A stretch of DNA of 6,632 nucleotides from NCBI GenBank assembly GCA_009843725.1, contig VYCX01000470.1, forward strand, positions 1-6,632. The letters are read 5' to 3'. The position numbers were made by a program, and so were the translations under genes. This DNA comes from Boseongicola sp. SB0675_bin_26. GTDB taxonomy: Bacteria; Pseudomonadota; Alphaproteobacteria; Rhodobacterales; Rhodobacteraceae. Each line of letters begins with the position of its first letter. The first letter of the stretch is position 1. This document shows, piece by piece, positions 1-6,632 of this stretch. The notes beneath the pieces are model-generated. The model ran no database searches. It was not told the origin of the DNA and saw nothing but the letters and a program-made list of their open reading frames with translations.

Positions 1-1076
1 GCGGCATCGATGTGGGCAAGCTTGTTCCGGGCGCAGTCCTTCAGTTCCTCGACCTTCGCCTCGACGACCGGGTTGCCGTCGAACAGGTCGCCGAACTCCA
101 GGAGGTCCGTCTCGTAGGCGAGGATCTGCTGCATGCGCAGCGACCATTGCTGGTCCCACGGGCGCGGCAGTCCGAGCGCCTCGTTCCAGGCCGGCAGCTG
201 GACCGCACGGGCGCGGGCGTTCCGCGACAGCGTGACCGCAAGCATTTCCAGGAGGATGCGATAGACGTTGTTCTCGGGCTGCTGCTCCGTCAGGCCGAGC
301 GAGTTGACCTGGACGCCGTAGCGGAAGCGGCGGTACTTCGGATCCTCGACCCCGTAGCGCTCGCGGCAGATCTCGTCCCAGAGCTCCGAGAAGGCGCGCA
401 TCTTGCACATCTCGGTCACGAAGCGAATGCCGGCGTTCACGAAGAAGGAGATGCGCCCGACCATGGCCGGGAAGTCCGCCGCCGGCACCTTGGCCCTGAG
501 GTCGTCGAGCACGGCCTGCGCTGTCGCCAGCGCGTAGGCGAGTTCCAGCTCGGGCGTCGCGCCGGCTTCCTGCAGGTGATAGGAGCAGACGTTCACCGGG
601 TTCCAGCCGGGGATGTGCCTGCCCGTGTAGGCCGCGACGTCGGTGACCATGCGAAGGCTGGATGCGGGCGGACAGATGTAGGTGCCGCGCGAGAGGTATT
701 CCTTGAGGATGTCGTTCTGGACCGTGCCCTTGAGCCTGGAGATGTCCGCTCCCTGCTCCTCGGCAACGGCGATGTAGAGGGCGAGAAGCCACGGCGCCGT
801 GGCGTTGATCGTCATCGACGTGTTCATCCCCTCCAGCGGGATTCCGTCGAAGAGAAGCCGCATGTCGCCCAGGTGCGAGATCGGCACGCCGACCTTTCCC
901 ACCTCGCCCTGTGCCAGCTCGTGGTCGCTGTCATAGCCCGTCTGTGTCGGCAGGTCGAACGCGACCGAGAGGCCTGTCTGGCCCCTGGAGAGGTTGTCGC
1001 GGAAGAGCGCGTTCGAGGCCTGGGCCGTCGAATGCCCTGCATATGTCCTGAAGAGCCAGGGTCTGTCTGCGGTCAT
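1..1076 (-). CDS. ecm: Ethylmalonyl-CoA mutase, N-terminal part (truncated by window edge)
   Basis: Coenzyme B12-dependent mutase that converts (2R)-ethylmalonyl-CoA to (2S)-methylsuccinyl-CoA in the cytoplasmic ethylmalonyl-CoA pathway (also called MeaA). The minus strand is open from ATG at 1076 to the left edge, giving 358 codons plus two bases with no stop. Seen: the N-terminal block RTYAGHSTAQASNALFR (about 10-26), QTGLSVAFDLPTQTGYD (33-49), GMNTSMTINATAPW (83-96), SYHLQEAGAT (165-174), QVNSLGLTEQQPENN (256-270) and LPRPWDQQWS (303-312), all typical of the acyl-CoA mutase catalytic barrel and closest, from memory, to MeaA/Ecm rather than methylmalonyl-CoA mutase. Family members are about 650 residues, so the rest of the barrel and the C-terminal cobalamin-binding domain lie outside the window. 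The ATG is preceded by a G-rich tract (GGGGGG, 1082-1087); an in-frame GTG at 1082 is an alternative start. Its divergent neighbour ccr acts in the same pathway, which strongly supports the call. Confidence 0.95.
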   Translation of the reverse strand, partial: MTADRPWLFRTYAGHSTAQASNALFRDNLSRGQTGLSVAFDLPTQTGYDSDHELAQGEVGKVGVPISHLGDMRLLFDGIPLEGMNTSMTINATAPWLLALYIAVAEEQGADISRLKGTVQNDILKEYLSRGTYICPPASSLRMVTDVAAYTGRHIPGWNPVNVCSYHLQEAGATPELELAYALATAQAVLDDLRAKVPAADFPAMVGRISFFVNAGIRFVTEMCKMRAFSELWDEICRERYGVEDPKYRRFRYGVQVNSLGLTEQQPENNVYRILLEMLAVTLSRNARARAVQLPAWNEALGLPRPWDQQWSLRMQQILAYETDLLEFGDLFDGNPVVEAKVEELKDCARNKLAHIDA

Positions 1077-1092
1077 GGGCACCCCCCAATGA

Positions 1093-1105
1093 GCAACAAA
1101 GTTGC
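1093..1105. promoter_or_regulatory. Short inverted repeat just upstream of ecm start
   Basis: The sequence reads GCAAC-AAA-GTTGC, a perfect 5-bp inverted repeat with a 3-bp centre, beginning 17 bp upstream of the ecm ATG. Its position would let a bound regulator, or a small hairpin in the 5' leader, affect ecm expression. Five-bp arms can occur by chance, so the role is inference from location. Confidence 0.3.
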
Positions 1106-1142
1106 GGCATCTGGAAATAAAGCGTAACAAACTGTCCCTGTC

Positions 1143-1165
1143 AATACGCCGCGTTGCAGCGTATT
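1143..1165. promoter_or_regulatory. 23-bp inverted repeat in the ecm-ccr divergent region (candidate operator)
   Basis: Perfect 7-bp arms AATACGC and GCGTATT flank a 9-bp centre. Inside the centre, GC and GC also pair, so 9 of 10 positions on each side match around a GTT middle. It lies 67 bp upstream of the ecm start and 217 bp upstream of the ccr start. Symmetry of this size in a shared control region fits a dimeric regulator. CcrR, a TetR-family protein, is known to control ccr in Methylobacterium by binding a palindrome, but I cannot say that this is the same site. Confidence 0.45.
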
Positions 1166-1264
1166 CCGGATCCGGCGGCCGCATTCAAGGCTTGGAGTCA
1201 TCCGTCGTCCGACCGCTTCTGTGCGCAGAACTGTCCTGAATCTGGCCCTTCGGCAAGAGTTCGA

Positions 1265-1288
1265 GCAATAAAGTTTCAAATTTTTTGC
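1265..1288. promoter_or_regulatory. AT-rich 24-bp quasi-palindrome between ecm and ccr (candidate operator)
   Basis: A 24-bp stretch with ends GCAA and TTGC matches its own reverse complement at 18 of 24 positions (9 of 12 pairs). It stands out as strongly AT-rich in a GC-rich locus. It lies 94 bp upstream of the ccr start and next to a TATATT hexamer at 1294-1299. This could be a regulator site, a promoter-associated AT tract, or both; the sequence alone does not decide. Confidence 0.4.
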
Positions 1289-1320
1289 CAGTGTATATTG
1301 AATGTTGCGCGACGGAATGA

Positions 1321-1348
1321 TTGACTTGGGGTCGAATCTGTGATTCTG
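1321..1348 (+). promoter_or_regulatory. Candidate ccr promoter
   Basis: TTGACT at 1321-1326 is a near-consensus sigma70 -35 hexamer, but the -10 side is weak: GATTCT at 1342-1347 or ATTCTG at 1343-1348 with 15- or 16-bp spacing. A start site near 1355 would give a leader of roughly 27 nt that includes the ribosome-binding site. The poor -10 would fit an activator-dependent promoter, as expected for a substrate-induced pathway, but that is inference. Confidence 0.3.
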
Positions 1349-1366
1349 CATCGCGGCGTCACATGG

Positions 1367-1372
1367 AAGGAG
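1367..1372 (+). promoter_or_regulatory. Ribosome-binding site of ccr
   Basis: AAGGAG is a strong Shine-Dalgarno match placed 9 nt before ATG 1382. It selects that start over the in-frame GTG at 1340, which would add 14 residues and place the SD inside the coding region. Confidence 0.85.
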
Positions 1373-1381
1373 CAACGCGGG

Positions 1382-2671
1382 ATGGCTTTGGACAAGATGA
1401 GCGCGGACACGGCATCGGCAGAGGGCAGGGATCTCTACGACCTGGGAGAGATCCCGCCCATGGGCCACGTGCCCGCAAGGATGCACGCCTGGGCGATTCG
1501 CCGCGAGCGGCATGGCGAACCGGACCGGTCGTTCCAGCTTGAGGTGGTCGATGTGCGCATGCCCGGAAGCAACGAGGTCGTCGTTCTCGTGATGGCCGCC
1601 GGCGTCAACTACAACGGCGTCTGGGCCGGCCTCGGCATTCCGATCAGCCCCTTCGACGTTCACGGGGCGGACTACCACATTGCCGGTTCTGACGCCTCGG
1701 GCATCGTCTGGGCCGTCGGGGACCGCGTCAAGAACTGGAAGGTCGGTGACGAGGTCGTCATCCATTGCAACCAGGATGACGGCGACGACGAGCATTGCAA
1801 CGGCGGCGACCCGATGTACTCACCGAGCCAGAGAATCTGGGGATACGAGACCCCGGACGGCTCGTTCGCCCAGTTCACGACGGTCCAGGCGCAGCAGCTG
1901 ATGCCCCGGCCGAAGCACCTGACCTGGGAGGAAAGCGCGTGCTACACGCTGACGTTGGCCACGGCCTACAGGATGCTCTTCGGCCACCACCCGCACGAGC
2001 TGAAGCCCGGGCAGAACGTGCTGGTCTGGGGCGCCAGCGGCGGGCTGGGATCCTACGCGATCCAGCTCGTCAACACGGCGGGCGGCAACGCGATCGGCGT
2101 GATCAGCGACGAGGAGAAGCGCGAGTTCGTCATGAGCCTCGGCGCGAAGGGCGTGATCAACCGCAACGAGTTCGAATGCTGGGGACAGCTGCCGACCGTG
2201 AACTCGCCGGAATACGGAGAGTGGTTCAAGGAGGTCCGCCGGTTCGGCAAGGCCATCTGGGACATCACCGGCAAGGGGGTCAATGTCGACATCGTCTTCG
2301 AGCACCCCGGCGAGGCCACGTTCCCGGTCTCGACCTTCGTGGTCAAGAAGGGCGGAATGGTCGTCATCTGCGCGGGCACCACGGGCTACAACCTGACGAT
2401 GGACGCGCGCTACGTCTGGATGCACCAGAAGCGCATCCAGGGCAGCCACTTCGCTCACCTGCAGCAGGCCTCGGCCGCCAACAAGCTGATGGTCGACCGC
2501 CGTCTTGACCCGTGCATGTCGGAGGTCTTCCCGTGGAGCGACATCCCGGCCGCCCACGTGAAGATGCGCAGGAACGAGCACAAGCCCGGCAACATGGCCG
2601 TCCTGGTCCAGGCGCCGCGGACAGGGCTGCGCACGCTCGACGACGCGCGGGAAGCGGGCAAGCAGGGATAG
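1382..2671 (+). CDS. ccr: Crotonyl-CoA carboxylase/reductase
   Basis: Cytoplasmic NADPH-dependent medium-chain reductase superfamily enzyme that reductively carboxylates crotonyl-CoA to (2S)-ethylmalonyl-CoA, the signature step of the ethylmalonyl-CoA pathway. The product has 429 residues, the usual family length of about 430. Seen: LYDLGEIPPMGHVP near the N-terminus, MAAGVNYNGVWAGLGIP (71-87), HIAGSDASGIVWAVGD (99-114), HCNQDDGDDEHCNGGDP (128-144), the NADPH-binding glycine motif GASGGLGS (217-224), VFEHPGEATFP (305-315) and the C-terminal KPGNMAVLVQAPRTGLRT (401-418). The CO2-holding residues known from the Kitasatospora enzyme (Asn, Phe, Glu, His) appear matched by an Asn of NYN (76 or 78), Tyr155 in place of Phe, Glu156 and His356. 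The conserved carboxylation residues argue against a plain enoyl reductase. The start is fixed by the AAGGAG site. It is divergent from ecm and presumably co-regulated with it. Confidence 0.97.
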   Translation: MALDKMSADTASAEGRDLYDLGEIPPMGHVPARMHAWAIRRERHGEPDRSFQLEVVDVRMPGSNEVVVLVMAAGVNYNGVWAGLGIPISPFDVHGADYHIAGSDASGIVWAVGDRVKNWKVGDEVVIHCNQDDGDDEHCNGGDPMYSPSQRIWGYETPDGSFAQFTTVQAQQLMPRPKHLTWEESACYTLTLATAYRMLFGHHPHELKPGQNVLVWGASGGLGSYAIQLVNTAGGNAIGVISDEEKREFVMSLGAKGVINRNEFECWGQLPTVNSPEYGEWFKEVRRFGKAIWDITGKGVNVDIVFEHPGEATFPVSTFVVKKGGMVVICAGTTGYNLTMDARYVWMHQKRIQGSHFAHLQQASAANKLMVDRRLDPCMSEVFPWSDIPAAHVKMRRNEHKPGNMAVLVQAPRTGLRTLDDAREAGKQG

Positions 2672-3101
2672 ACGAGGTCCTGCCTGCCGTGCAGCAACCG
2701 GGACAGGGCCGATTCTGCCTGGGCATTGCCGCGTGAGAGGGCGCGCGCGTTGAACGGCGCTGGCCAAGTTCGATGTCACCCGTATTTTCGCGGAAGCCGT
2801 CCGCATCCGTCATTCTGGGCGTTGAATTTCGAGCCGGTCGGGCGCCCGGCGTGGTCGCGGGCACCTGTCGCCGCATAGGCATCAATGCTGCAAGGCAGGT
2901 CCGGCGGCCCAGACAGAACCGCACGACAGGTCCCGGGCCCGAAGGTCTTTGGCGGGGTGCAAGCCGCGACGACTCCGCACGAGGCACAGGCCTCTGGAAC
3001 CTTGTGACCGGTGCGGGACCGAACTGTGGATCTTCCGGGACTGGAGCAGGCCGGGAAGCCGCCGTGAGAAGGGCCGCCGGCACCGCCCGGCAATTCGTGG
3101 T
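2672..3101. other. Convergent intergenic region, no gene seen
   Basis: This 430-bp stretch separates the 3' ends of ccr and the minus-strand ligase gene. Open frames here are arginine- and proline-rich, lack good ribosome-binding sites, and run into or under the neighbours. GC-rich short palindromes such as GGGCGCCC occur, but no hairpin followed by a T-run is visible on either strand, so I see no intrinsic terminator. Termination may be Rho-dependent. Confidence 0.6.
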
Positions 3102-4280
3102 TCAGACGCCTTCGCGCGTGTCGGCGATGCCCTGGTCAACGACCTTGCCGAGCGCCTCCGCGTCGCTGTCTCCCTCGACGCGTCGCAGGCGGTAGAGATC
3201 GACCTGCCGGTCGGCGGAGGTGCCTTCGCGCACGATGTCGAGAGCGCGGCGTATTTCCACCTCGCAGCCCAGCGCATGCGCGTCTTCCGCCAGGTCCTCG
3301 ACAAGCTCGGCAACAAGGTCCTCGATGTCCGTGCGACCGCTCAGGCGCCGGGAGTCGCCGAAGTTCGCCAGCACGCCGTAGCGCTGCGCGACCCAACGGT
3401 TCTCCGCAATGATGTCGGTGTGGTCCTCGAGCGGCAGCCTGCCGTCCCTGTCGAGACGCATCAGCATCCGGACGAGGGATGCGTACAAGGCAGCGATGCA
3501 GACCGCGTCGTCGATGCGGGTGCAGATGTCGCATATCCGAAGCTCGACGGTCGGAAAGGCATGGGAGGGACGGATGTCCCACCACAGCTCGCTGCCGTCC
3601 TCGATGAACTTCATGCGCTGGTACTCGCCAAGGAGTTCCTCGTAGTCGTCCCAGGAATGCAGCGGCCCGGGTATGCCGGTGCGGGGAAGGCCGCCCATCA
3701 GCGTCAGTCGCCAGGACTTGAATCCGGTCAGCCGGCCCTGGCTGAAGGGCGAGGAGGTCGACAAGGCGTGCAGAAGGGGCAGGTAGTTGCGGAGCACCGT
3801 CATGACCCGGATCCGGGAATCCCGGTCCCCGAAGCCTGCATGGACATGCATGCCTCCGACCACGAACTGGCGAACGTTCTCCTGGAACCTGCTGGCGAAG
3901 TTGTCGTAGCGCTTCTTCGGCGTGGTCATCTGTTCCGACTGCAACGCGAAGGGATGCGTGGAAGCGGCGAGCACTGCAGCGCCGTGCTGCTCCGCAGCCT
4001 CGATGATCGTGCCGCGGGTCTCGCGCAGGGCCTGTCGCAGCGTGGCAACGGAACTGCAGACCCGGGTGTTGGATTCGATCTGCGTGCGAAGGAATTCGCG
4101 AACGATCTTGTGGGCGCCGCTGGCCTTCTCGCTGGCCTCGAAGATCGCGACATCCGGATCGGCAATCAGGTCGCGCGTCCTGGGGTCGACGAGGAAGAAC
4201 TCCTCCTCGATTCCGAGCGTGACCGCGAATTCGTCGTCGTCGGGATAGACGGTCTCGGCTCCGGTTTCGATTTCGTTCAC
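3102..4280 (-). CDS. ybdK: YbdK-family carboxylate-amine ligase (glutamate-cysteine ligase type 2)
   Basis: The 392-residue product belongs to the GCS2/YbdK family of ATP-dependent carboxylate-amine ligases; E. coli YbdK (372 residues) has weak gamma-glutamylcysteine synthetase activity in vitro and its physiological substrate is uncertain. Seen: TLGIEEEFFLVDP (21-33, the glutamate-rich N-terminal motif), RTQIESNTRVCSS (65-77), STHPF (107-111), GGMHVHAGFGDRD (142-154, metal/nucleotide-site histidines), LSTSSPFSQGR (173-183), WWDIRPSHAFPTVELRICD (233-251) and RYGVLANF (300-307). The frame is open up to ATG 4430, but residues before GTG 4280 are arginine-rich and unlike the family, and GGGGGA lies 6 nt before that GTG, so I chose GTG. 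A 442-residue form from 4430 is the alternative. It is convergent with ccr and shows no operon partner in this window. The family is clear; the substrate is not. Confidence 0.9.
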   Translation of the reverse strand: MNEIETGAETVYPDDDEFAVTLGIEEEFFLVDPRTRDLIADPDVAIFEASEKASGAHKIVREFLRTQIESNTRVCSSVATLRQALRETRGTIIEAAEQHGAAVLAASTHPFALQSEQMTTPKKRYDNFASRFQENVRQFVVGGMHVHAGFGDRDSRIRVMTVLRNYLPLLHALSTSSPFSQGRLTGFKSWRLTLMGGLPRTGIPGPLHSWDDYEELLGEYQRMKFIEDGSELWWDIRPSHAFPTVELRICDICTRIDDAVCIAALYASLVRMLMRLDRDGRLPLEDHTDIIAENRWVAQRYGVLANFGDSRRLSGRTDIEDLVAELVEDLAEDAHALGCEVEIRRALDIVREGTSADRQVDLYRLRRVEGDSDAEALGKVVDQGIADTREGV

Positions 4281-4286
4281 TGGCTT

Positions 4287-4292
4287 TCCCCC
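4287..4292 (-). promoter_or_regulatory. Ribosome-binding site supporting GTG start of ybdK-like gene
   Basis: On the minus strand GGGGGA precedes GTG 4280 by six bases. This purine-rich match decides between the GTG start, which gives a family-length protein, and the far upstream ATG at 4430. Confidence 0.6.
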
Positions 4293-4574
4293 ATGCTTTC
4301 TCGTGGCCCGTCGTGACCGCCTGTGGGTGCCGCGGCTGCCGCACAGGGCTGCAGGCGTCGCCCAGGACGTGCGCCCGCTCTGCCAAGCGCGCTGCGTGCC
4401 CATGGAGCGGCCCCAAGGACGGCTTTCCATTAGCGCGACCCGCCCGCGACGTCAAAGGCGACCTGCCTTCGGTTCAGTTGCCTGCGCTCAAACCTCTGAA
4501 CTCCGACCGCCTCGGGTCGTGATCGGCCTGGGCCCTGTCAATCCATCACGCTCAAGTCCGGCTCATCTCCTGTT

Positions 4575-4760
4575 TCATTTCGGCATTCTTCCGTCCCGGT
4601 CCTGCAGGGGTTGTACGGCGACTGTGGCATGGGACAGGAACCGCCCTTGGGCTTTCGCATTCTCGTCGGCGGCTGGCGCTTCAAGCGACGGAAGCCGGCC
4701 AACGCGCTGGCAGGCCGCTGCAAGAGTCGTCCCGGCTTCATCACGAGCCCGGCCGAACAC
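4575..4760 (-). pseudogene. Possible gene remnant, unknown function
   Basis: The minus-strand frame from GTG 4760 to the stop at 4575-4577 gives 61 residues of balanced, protein-like composition (for example DEAGTTLAAACQRVGR and APAADENAKAQGRF). The frame stays open further upstream without a start codon until stops near 4840, as expected for the C-terminal tail of a gene that lost its front. I recognise no family and see no clear ribosome-binding site. It could equally be chance. Confidence 0.2.
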
Positions 4761-4871
4761 GGTGAACTCTGCACGATCTCGTACCGAGCCATTTTTCCGT
4801 GGATCCGGAAACGCCGCCCGCTGCCTCGTTCAATCTGTTCAGGTCCGTTCCGCGAAAGCTACTGACCTCGA

Positions 4872-4902
4872 GACAATCTCCGCGTAAATTACGGAGATTG
4901 TC
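4872..4902. promoter_or_regulatory. Upstream operator-like inverted repeat of fic
   Basis: Perfect 11-bp arms GACAATCTCCG (4872-4882) and CGGAGATTGTC (4892-4902) flank a 9-bp spacer. It sits directly upstream of the -35 hexamer at 4904. The core AATCTCCG is the same as in the second repeat at 4911-4939, with inverted order of the half-sites, so both are probably bound by one protein. The winged helix at the Fic C-terminus is the natural candidate (inference). Confidence 0.8.
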
Positions 4903-4903
4903 A

Positions 4904-4932
4904 TTGCCCTTGCGGAGATTGCTCTCTATAAT
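4904..4932 (+). promoter_or_regulatory. fic promoter (sigma70-like)
   Basis: TTGCCC (4904-4909) and a perfect TATAAT (4927-4932) are separated by 17 bp, the optimal spacing. Transcription would begin near 4939, leaving a leader of only about 16 nt before ATG 4955. The -35 lies between the second and third half-sites and the -10 overlaps the fourth, so occupancy of the operators would block RNA polymerase. Confidence 0.75.
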
Positions 4933-4939
4933 CTCCGCA
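4911..4939. promoter_or_regulatory. Downstream operator-like inverted repeat overlapping the fic -10 box
   Basis: Perfect 10-bp arms TGCGGAGATT (4911-4920) and AATCTCCGCA (4930-4939) flank a 9-bp spacer, the same spacer length as the upstream repeat. The repeat covers the spacer and -10 of the promoter. A weaker fifth copy, TGCGGAAAAC (4945-4954, 7 of 10 positions), abuts the start codon. Confidence 0.8.
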
Positions 4940-4954
4940 GAAAGTGCGGAAAAC

Positions 4955-6067
4955 ATGACCTGCATTCACGAACTCAATGACTGGACAAGGTTCACTTGGG
5001 ACAAGGCTGCGCTGTTTTCCAAGCTCGCGGCGGTACGCCACAGGCAAGGCCGGCTTCTTGGCCGGATGGAAGGCCTGGGCTTCGATCTGCGCGATGAAGC
5101 CATGTTGCGAACATTGACCAGCGATGTCGTCAAGAGCAGCGAGATTGAGGGCGAAATCCTCGACAAGGACCAGGTGCGGTCATCAATTGCACGACGTCTC
5201 GGGATCGAGATTGCCGCATTGGTTGCATCGGATCGACATGTCGACGGCATCGTTGAGCTGGCGCTTGATGCGACACAAGACTGCCACAAGCCACTTGATG
5301 CGGAGCGCCTGCTTGGCTGGCACGCAGCGCTGTTTCCAACAGGGCGAAGCGGCACGAAAAGGATCAAGGTCGGCGATTGGCGCGACGCTGCCAGTGGGCC
5401 GATGCAGGTTGTTTCAGGGCCCATTGGTCGAGAGCGCGTTCACTTCGAAGCCCCGGACGCCGCCAGGCTGGATGTTGAAATGGAGCGCTTTCTGGATTGG
5501 TTCAATCGTGAGTCGGAAACGGATCCAGTCATCAAGGCGGCCACGGCACATCTATGGTTTGTCACGATCCACCCGTTTGAGGACGGCAACGGGCGCATTG
5601 CCCGGGCCATTGCGGACATGGCGCTGGCGCGCTCAGAGAACAGCACGCAACGACATTACAGCATGTCGACCCAAATCCGTCAGGAGCGCGACGCCTACTA
5701 TGAAATCCTGGAGTCGACGCAAAAGGGGGGGCATGACATCACGCCCTGGCTGACCTGGTTTCTGGATTGCCTTGATCGGGCCATTGAAGGCGCGGAGGAC
5801 ATTCTTGCCAGTGTCTTTGAAAAGGCTCGGTTCTGGGAGAAGCATGCAACGACGAATCTCAACGAAAGGCAGCGGGACATTCTGAACCGGCTGCTGGACG
5901 GTTTCGAAGGCAAGCTCACCACGTCGAAATATGCAAAGATCGAGAAGTGCTCTCAGGACACGGCATATAGAGACATCATTGTGTTGATCGAGTCAGGCGC
6001 GCTGATGAAGGATGAAGCTGGTGGACGCAGTACCAGCTATTCGTTGGTGGCGGGGCAGGGAGCTTGA
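4955..6067 (+). CDS. Fic-domain AMPylase-type protein with DUF4172-like N-terminus and C-terminal winged helix
   Basis: Fic enzymes transfer AMP (or another nucleotide moiety) from a nucleotide to hydroxyl side chains of target proteins; the target here is unknown. The 370-residue product shows, in order: a DUF4172-like N-terminal region (about 7-85) beginning NDWTRFTWD with QGRLLGRMEGLGFDLRDEA; an inhibitory motif S61-SEI-E65-G66 within KSSEIEGE that fits the class II [S/T]xxxE[G/N] rule; a probable flap around GRSGTKRIKVGDWR (130-143); the complete active-site motif HPFEDGNGRIAR (206-217) with catalytic His206 and Asp210; and a winged-helix region (about 302-365) with SKYAKIEKCSQDTAYRDI and GGRSTSYSL. 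No key residue is missing. The frame is open back to ATG 4799, but the promoter at 4904-4932 and the family N-terminus support ATG 4955. The SD is weak (GCGGA, 4 nt away). Lower GC and looser codon use than ccr suggest transfer. No separate antitoxin gene is seen, consistent with an internal inhibitor. Confidence 0.95.
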   Translation: MTCIHELNDWTRFTWDKAALFSKLAAVRHRQGRLLGRMEGLGFDLRDEAMLRTLTSDVVKSSEIEGEILDKDQVRSSIARRLGIEIAALVASDRHVDGIVELALDATQDCHKPLDAERLLGWHAALFPTGRSGTKRIKVGDWRDAASGPMQVVSGPIGRERVHFEAPDAARLDVEMERFLDWFNRESETDPVIKAATAHLWFVTIHPFEDGNGRIARAIADMALARSENSTQRHYSMSTQIRQERDAYYEILESTQKGGHDITPWLTWFLDCLDRAIEGAEDILASVFEKARFWEKHATTNLNERQRDILNRLLDGFEGKLTTSKYAKIEKCSQDTAYRDIIVLIESGALMKDEAGGRSTSYSLVAGQGA

Positions 6068-6074
6068 CGCCGCC

Positions 6075-6389
6075 ATGTACCACGATCACGACTCGTTGCC
6101 TTTCCAGGGAAATGGGCGAGAGGCGGTCATTGGCCATCTGTGCAGGAAGATCAGAAACAGACCATGAGAGCAGACCTGGGAGGTCGAACGAGCCACCTAC
6201 CGCGATTCCGACCTGCCATCGAGCACCTCGACCGCGCGGCACCTGGCCGCGCTGGTTGCCGCAGAACCCGTCGAGATGCATGACCCGTTGCGTGACGACT
6301 CGGTCGCCGGTCGCACGGCTGCCTTGACCACGCTCCAGCAGCGGTGGTCTTTGCGCCCCCGAAGCGATTCTTGCAGCGTCCGGACATGA
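6075..6389 (+). pseudogene. Possible broken coding sequence, unknown function
   Basis: From ATG 6075 the frame encodes 30 residues (MYHDHDSLPFQGNGREAVIG and on), stops at TGA 6165-6167, and then stays open to TGA 6387-6389 for another 73 codons of protein-like composition, including EQTWEVERATYRDSDLPSS and ARHLAALVAAEPVEMHDPL. Both halves share one frame, so a single nonsense change could explain the break. I recognise no family. The minus-strand frame opposite is also open, so chance is a real alternative. Confidence 0.25.
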
Positions 6390-6539
6390 GCGGAGACTTC
6401 GGTGCGTCGACCTGCTGAACAAGGGGGCAGGTCCGAGTCAACGCGATCGCAGGAAGTCGAGCCCTTGCAGACAAGGCGTCTCCCTCGCCGAATCCCGCCA
6501 AGGCAGTCATGTCACTCGGCGAAGTGCGGAAGTCGGAAC

Positions 6540-6553
6540 AAAGCCCGGGCTTT
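6540..6553. repeat. 14-bp perfect palindrome
   Basis: AAAGCCCGGGCTTT equals its own reverse complement. It has no loop and no following T-run, so it is a poor terminator hairpin; it could be a protein-binding site or chance in GC-rich DNA. Confidence 0.3.
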
Positions 6554-6632
6554 CTCATGATGCTGCCTGGGCGCAGGGTCAGGACTTTCCCACGCTGCGG
6601 CTGATCTTTCGGCCGGCTGACGAACGGAGGCC

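Follow-up and report, generated by a model that had tools for sequence, protein, structure and literature searches.

Class II enzymes make up 80% of all Fic proteins, and the control of their activity is described as nearly unexplored in the available passages of a report on CccR from Yersinia pseudotuberculosis (PMC9755527). CccR is a class II Fic with a C-terminal helix-turn-helix which, according to the same passages, recognises inverted repeats close to the -35 and -10 elements of its own promoter and represses itself, as seen by footprinting, electrophoretic mobility shift and lacZ assays. Its box is a single pair, AGATAATCAT-N26-ATGATAATCT (PMC9755527). Here we describe an array of half-sites at the promoter of a fic gene in Boseongicola sp. 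SB0675_bin_26 (contig VYCX01000470.1, positions 1 to 6,632; this whole stretch of 6,632 nucleotides is referred to as the window). Because the array is conserved across phyla and the third base of its half-site changes with residue 335 of the encoded DUF4172-Fic protein, these half-sites are very probably the operator at which this protein would bind, through its predicted C-terminal winged helix, to repress its own promoter.

The window resembles the CccR locus in both protein and promoter. It encodes a class II Fic with a C-terminal helix-turn-helix (here predicted), and its inverted repeats overlap the -35 and -10 elements predicted for the gene itself. In contrast to the one pair given for CccR in the passages cited above, the family to which the window belongs repeats an 11-bp half-site, TGCGGnGAWTA, five or six times in alternating orientation, with gaps of 7 and 5 bp. 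The CccR box AGATAATCAT finds no match in the window at up to one mismatch and two at two mismatches (one of them at 4895-4904), as expected by chance. Self-repression of the window gene would most likely resemble that of CccR, through another word and another geometry.

Two further relatives are informative. CbFic2, a DUF4172 Fic with the same domain order, binds random DNA through its winged helix and dimerises on DNA, and the passages available from its description name no operator (PMC10628234). It is the nearest solved structure to the window Fic both by sequence (2.4e-96) and by fold (PDB 8cil). Unlike the window Fic, which has Asp at residue 335, CbFic2 has Thr at the aligned position; it is also described in those passages as acting on host histones (PMC10628234), whereas nothing points to that role for the window Fic. 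For the Sofic anti-phage system an antitoxin, AS1, is reported, with no operator in the passages available (PMC12249575). CccR has been likened to SoFic (29%, 45% coverage) in the passages of its own report (PMC9755527), while CccR and the window Fic are set side by side here by description. The window Fic shares with SoFic its class II type and matches the PADLOC SoFic profile (4.2e-45). Its score against the NCBIfam SoFic equivalog NF046030 is 51.2 bits, under the cut-off of 550, and it is therefore not assigned as a SoFic ortholog.

In self-repressing type II toxin-antitoxin operons, a toxic enzyme is held at a low level by repeats that overlap its own promoter. The fic loci differ in that no conserved second gene was found and the enzyme itself carries the predicted DNA-binding domain. 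Open-access PMC papers, the scope of our search (subscription papers and preprints lie outside it), yielded no report of a DUF4172-Fic operator, and the papers returned for the half-site word were unrelated, as judged by their titles.

An Array of Alternating Half-Sites at the fic Promoter

The core word AATCTCCGY matches the window exactly at four places only: 4875-4883 and 4930-4938 on the forward strand, and 4891-4899 and 4912-4920 on the reverse strand. None of 200 dinucleotide shuffles of the window held four exact copies (mean 0.10). At up to one mismatch the window contains six matches, a number that 24 of the 200 shuffles also reach, so the case for the word rests on its exact copies and their clustering. 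These copies form two perfect inverted repeats, 4872-4882/4892-4902 and 4911-4920/4930-4939, with 9 nt between the arms of each. The first-pass annotation, made from the sequence of the window, had placed all four copies correctly and had also described the two repeats, with their 11- and 10-bp arms and 9-bp spacers, as they are found. The spacers are indeed equal, but the geometry of the repeats is not, since one runs F-to-R and the other R-to-F, with gaps of 5 and 7 bp between 11-bp half-sites.

Scored with a profile of the 11-bp family half-site, for which the window was one of 104 training loci, F5, R4, F2, R3 and R6, in this order, outscore every other 11-mer of the window. F2 (4874..4884, reading CGCGGAGATTG on the reverse strand, 13.5 bits) is followed by R3 (4890..4900, forward, TACGGAGATTG, 11.9 bits) after a 5-bp gap, as in the family. 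R4 (4911..4921, forward, TGCGGAGATTG, 16.6 bits) and F5 (4929..4939, reading TGCGGAGATTA on the reverse strand, 18.1 bits) are 7 bp apart. R6 (4945..4955, forward, TGCGGAAAACA) lies 5 bp beyond F5, and its final position coincides with the A of the fic ATG. At 9.6 bits it is weak, and the sixth-best match, far from the array at 1495, scores nearly the same (9.4 bits), so R6 is credible only by its place 5 bp from F5. R6 corresponds to the degenerate fifth copy of the earlier annotation.

The predicted promoter consists of a -35 hexamer, TTGCCC (4904..4909, forward), one base before R4, and, 17 nt further on, a -10 hexamer, TATAAT (4927..4932, forward), which overlaps F5 at an offset from R4 that the family shares. 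It is the sole promoter-like site found in 4780-5000, in keeping with the earlier description of TATAAT overlapping the last copy and TTGCCC between the repeats.

Conservation of the Array Across the Family

Upstream regions were taken from 128 fic loci (the best 80 genome loci of more, 47 viral-contig loci and the window), of which 104 remained after thinning at 80% upstream identity. The family half-site, with a profile of 14.8 bits, is arranged in six slots, R1-F2-R3/R4-F5-R6, which form two R-F-R triads with gaps of 7 bp from R to F and 5 bp from F to R. A series of R and F half-sites that alternate at gaps of 7 and 5 bp describes the unit better than a pair of equal inverted repeats does. 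CCGC-N7-GCGG occurs in 87 of the 104 thinned regions and GCGG-N19-CCGC in 92, compared with at most three occurrences per set in the controls (inside fic, -700, +1200, shuffled). All six sites are present at 54 of 104 loci and at least five at 84; control regions (shuffled, inside fic, -700, +1250) mostly hold no site and never more than two. Occupancy is 77/101 for R1, 88/101 for F2 and 84/101 for R3 in the distal triad, and 94/104 for R4, 99/104 for F5 and 96/104 for R6 in the proximal one. Since the profile was trained on the same loci, the weight lies on the contrast with the controls and not on the score. Where F2 and R3 both pass, R3 and R4 are 18-23 bp apart in 77 of 78 loci, most commonly 21 bp, which is also the value in the window.

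The repeats, whose conservation upstream of close fic homologues the first-pass annotation had made a test of its reading, are kept well beyond such homologues. Array and fic are carried together by chromosomes, plasmids and phage contigs, and the host phyla as labelled in the records are Pseudomonadota, Acidobacteria, Planctomycetota, Omnitrophota and Bacteroidota, many of them metagenome bins whose labels may be misassigned.

The array also keeps its place relative to the promoter. A complete proximal triad is present at 87 of 104 loci. In 84 of these a TTG begins 6-9 nt ahead of R4, and in 73 the hexamer found at R4+16 conforms to (T/C)A...T; because it sits there, the family -10 overlaps F5. 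Of the 96 loci having R6, 85 place its GCGG 8-12 nt ahead of the codon that aligns with residue 1, where a ribosome-binding site would be expected. Around the 128 fic loci (up to 3 kb per side, near-duplicates included) all 174 triads start between -120 and -21 of fic residue 1, and none is found elsewhere.

Gaps were also surveyed with complementarity as the sole criterion (TG...CA ends and a minimum of 8 paired positions out of 11). Between R and F, 116 of 132 loci with Asp335 and 28 of 39 others have 7 bp (8 of the 39 have 6 bp). Among the Asp335 loci, 96 of 132 have an F-to-R gap of 5 bp. That spacing recurs at 6 of the 39 non-Asp335 loci, where 15 bp (15 loci) and 16 bp (11 loci) prevail, a difference of about one helical turn. 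As the 7-bp gap is common to both groups while the F-to-R gap differs, the R-to-F pair is the shared unit.

In the window's own genome (92% complete) the full pattern occurs once, at fic, other matches there having two or more mismatches. A looser pattern, TCNCCGCN7GCGG, gave 79 matches in that genome against 45 for the control and was dropped as unspecific. A pattern-first search of 385 genomes returned 21 sites, compared with none for the reversed pattern, and 16 of the 21 lie, by coordinates, directly 5' of a DUF4172 fic frame. These include genome G552, in which the array (locus L510, from 1500) directly precedes a fic frame without its first approximately 40 residues. At L497, also from 1500, one pattern-first site is followed immediately by a fic remnant that retains only the helix-turn-helix stretch.

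The Fic Protein and the Third Base of the Half-Site

The fic gene (4955..6067, forward) encodes 370 amino acids, comprising DUF4172 (Pfam PF13776, 1.2e-32), the Fic core (PF02661, 4.5e-18) and a predicted C-terminal winged helix. It thus belongs to the DUF4172 Fic proteins with a C-terminal winged helix-turn-helix, the last feature being assigned by the structure model and a fold match to 8cil. The motif SSEIEG (residues 61-66, 5135..5152) conforms to the class II inhibitory motif (S/T)xxxE(G/N) N-terminal to the Fic core, and the FIC motif, HPFEDGNGRIAR, spans residues 206-217 (5570..5605). The structure model (pLDDT 90.8) predicts a winged helix-turn-helix at residues 304-364 (5864..6046) with helices 304-314, 323-330 and 334-346 and strands 350-352 and 361-364; all these features are on the forward strand. 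The predicted recognition helix is 334-346 (5954..5992), and Asp335 (5957-5959) stands at its start. Elsewhere in the same genome (G000), partial matches to two further DUF4172-Fic subfamilies lie at C308:4792-5265 and C259:4630-4908 (75% to stretches of L007 and L010).

Residue 335 covaries with the third base of the half-site. Candidate frames numbering 337 were reduced to 307 and then to 202 distinct DUF4172-Fic proteins, 181 with a usable dyad and 21 without; L081 and L155, which lack a full frame, were excluded from the first protein alignment. Residue 335 is Asp in 153 of the 202, Ala in 43, Pro in 4, and Ser and Glu in one each. Among the 181 proteins with a usable dyad, Asp335 goes with C at base 3 in 145 of 145, and Ala, Pro or Ser335 with A in 34 of 36. 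Aspartate is able to accept a hydrogen bond from cytosine.

Once this rule had been noted, 16 plasmid loci chosen for their spread of identity were fetched and treated by the same procedure. Fifteen were usable, of which 14 fit the rule and one is mixed. Base 3 is C in all four with Asp335; among the 11 usable non-Asp loci it is A alone in nine and G and A in L571 (Thr335). L570, another Thr335 locus, has no usable dyad and reads TGG by eye. The Thr335 Fic proteins of these two Campylobacterota plasmids are accompanied by TGGTATGATTA sites (in L570 by eye), and Thr335 with TGGTATGATTA is perhaps a third value of the residue-base code.

To place these changes, protein trees were built without the winged helix, one of 103 rows and one of 125 that added the plasmid loci and six others. 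In the larger tree, states were assigned by hand to the 16 plasmid loci (A for L573, G for L570 and L571) and to six first-set members (A for each). The 103-row tree has three changes between Asp and non-Asp and four of base 3, and the 125-row tree four and five. Independent pairs that differ in base all do so in the same direction.

Points Against Fic as the Binder

Several observations weigh against this reading of the array. The window itself has no R1, and its R6 is weak; across the family, fewer than five sites are found at 20 of 104 loci, and L075 has only one above threshold. The two non-Asp exceptions to the residue rule, L053 and L057 (Bradyrhizobium), score as C with mixed TGC and TGA sites, L104 mixes the same two, and C and A are tied in the plasmid locus L573 (Ala335), which has one TGC site. 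The switches between Asp and non-Asp are few (three, or four on the larger tree, two of them forced by well-supported branches), and with only 2-4 independent pairs a sign test cannot reach significance. Finally, the word occurs apart from fic. Four of the 21 pattern-first sites form two arrays of 4-5 half-sites (L508 and L509) that lack an adjacent DUF4172 fic, and neither of their genomes (G227 and G324) appears among the genomes with a DUF4172-Fic match. Lone triads also stand on many phage contigs, many of them near-perfect and outside long frames. Given these fic-less arrays and lone triads, the half-site word is not exclusively a fic operator.

Among the matches listed in a pattern-first scan of viral contigs, a DUF4172 fic starts within 200 bp in only 20 of the 80 with a testable frame; five further matches, genome and viral sets together, are without a frame. 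Some of the lone-triad loci are truncated (e.g., L437), and some matches fall inside coding genes and are likely due to chance. No DUF4172 fic was found in 24 of 26 chosen lone-triad records searched whole, although the records may be fragments.

Alternative Explanations

The word found without an adjacent DUF4172 fic, on phage contigs and in two genomes, would suit another regulator, encoded elsewhere in the chromosome, that binds the half-sites and to which fic is merely a regulated gene. Yet the array accompanies fic on plasmids and phage contigs and across phyla, and the largest gene family shared within 2 kb of fic occurs at only 8 of 104 loci (66 of the 104 have at least 1.5 kb on both sides). 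Moreover, the operator word varies between fic subfamilies in step with the recognition helix of Fic itself. We regard a separate regulator as unlikely.

The phage loci also allow the triad to be seen primarily as a recombination or insertion site that moves fic and accessory genes between phages and plasmids, with regulation secondary. The fic-less L445 and L453 carry one triad where relatives have array and fic, and at that same place L393 has a TGC triad next to a fic of another type. Where related phages are aligned, the alignment in several cases has its breakpoint at the left end of a lone triad. Modular exchange of phage genes at gene borders accounts equally well for such breakpoints, however, and the distances to the -35 and -10 are conserved. 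Since no triad lies 3' of fic, or anywhere else in the stretches around the 128 loci, fic is not bracketed by triads. A primary role in recombination therefore seems quite unlikely.

The repeats might instead act as RNA, with a hairpin of F5 and R6 (which could pair in a 6-bp stem with a 5-nt loop) hiding the ribosome-binding site or attenuating transcription. A start predicted approximately 7 nt after TATAAT, near 4939, would leave most of F5 untranscribed, however, and the equally conserved distal triad sits upstream of the promoter. The reading was rejected as very improbable because the F-to-R gap is mostly 15-16 bp, not 5, in non-Asp loci and because 4700-5100 has no Rfam match up to E 1. 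Chance or an assembly artefact has practically no standing, being refuted by the absence of four copies from every shuffle and by the five or more sites at 84 of the 104 loci, with nothing found in its favour.

How Fic May Act at the Array

That the DUF4172-Fic binds the array remains the favoured reading. The first-pass annotation had described a compact array around the fic promoter and had named the C-terminal domain of Fic as a candidate binder, a proposal that conservation and the covariation of the recognition helix support at the level of sequence. The array is presumably cooperative and repressive in character, as that annotation had it. Fic monomers or dimers would occupy adjacent half-sites side by side, and bound Fic would block RNA polymerase, and perhaps also the ribosome on a very short leader. 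Such a block could hold a potentially toxic AMPylating enzyme at a low level, while the distal triad, upstream of the promoter, may stabilise the complex. From the CbFic2 experiments, as far as the available passages describe them, DNA binding may set the balance of AMPylation and deAMPylation by dimerising Fic (PMC10628234), and for this reason the operator may act on activity besides expression.

A bolder scheme, which we consider rather unlikely, would make the array itself the antitoxin. Promoter DNA would both silence the gene and dock Fic, a SoFic relative, as an inactive or deAMPylating dimer; the lone R-F-R operators of phages would serve as decoys, holding the enzyme of the host in its docked state during replication of the phage DNA; and the rule pairing Asp335 with C and Ala, Pro or Ser335 with A at base 3 would keep each lineage on a private operator.

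For the DUF4172 Fic family the array defines a candidate binding word, along with its geometry and a residue that would set specificity, and DNA control of Fic enzymes becomes directly testable with short synthetic fragments. The residue rule is offered for predicting the cognate sites of DUF4172 Fic proteins, including CbFic2, which was assayed on random DNA. The lone phage triads raise a testable link to phage-host conflict.

Phage Loci and Other Genes of the Window

Lone R-F-R triads are found in L376, L385, L401, L410, L384, L396, L443, L445 and L453, and in the first four the left edge of the triad lies within 4 nt of the end of an open frame. One phage site occurs in three states: fic with its array (L116, L123 and L133), a lone triad (L445 and L453), and the form in L393, where the differently typed fic beside the TGC triad has TGATCGATA sites of its own. 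L420 and L434 have an extra segment beside the lone triad that is missing in L443; two L420 frames resemble BrnT and BrnA. Among named phages, the L385 triad region had no match at the DNA level and a made-up consensus triad had weak ones (nine records, best E 0.8), while tblastn gave 26 records, all under 60% identity. A scan of viral contigs with the L007 protein yielded no confirmed relatives.

Elsewhere in the window, a YbdK-type carboxylate-amine ligase (GCS2) is encoded at 3102-4280 on the reverse strand. Positions 1-2668 hold a crotonyl-CoA carboxylase/reductase beside an opposed frame, presumably an acyl-CoA mutase, and this is possibly an ethylmalonyl-CoA pathway pair.
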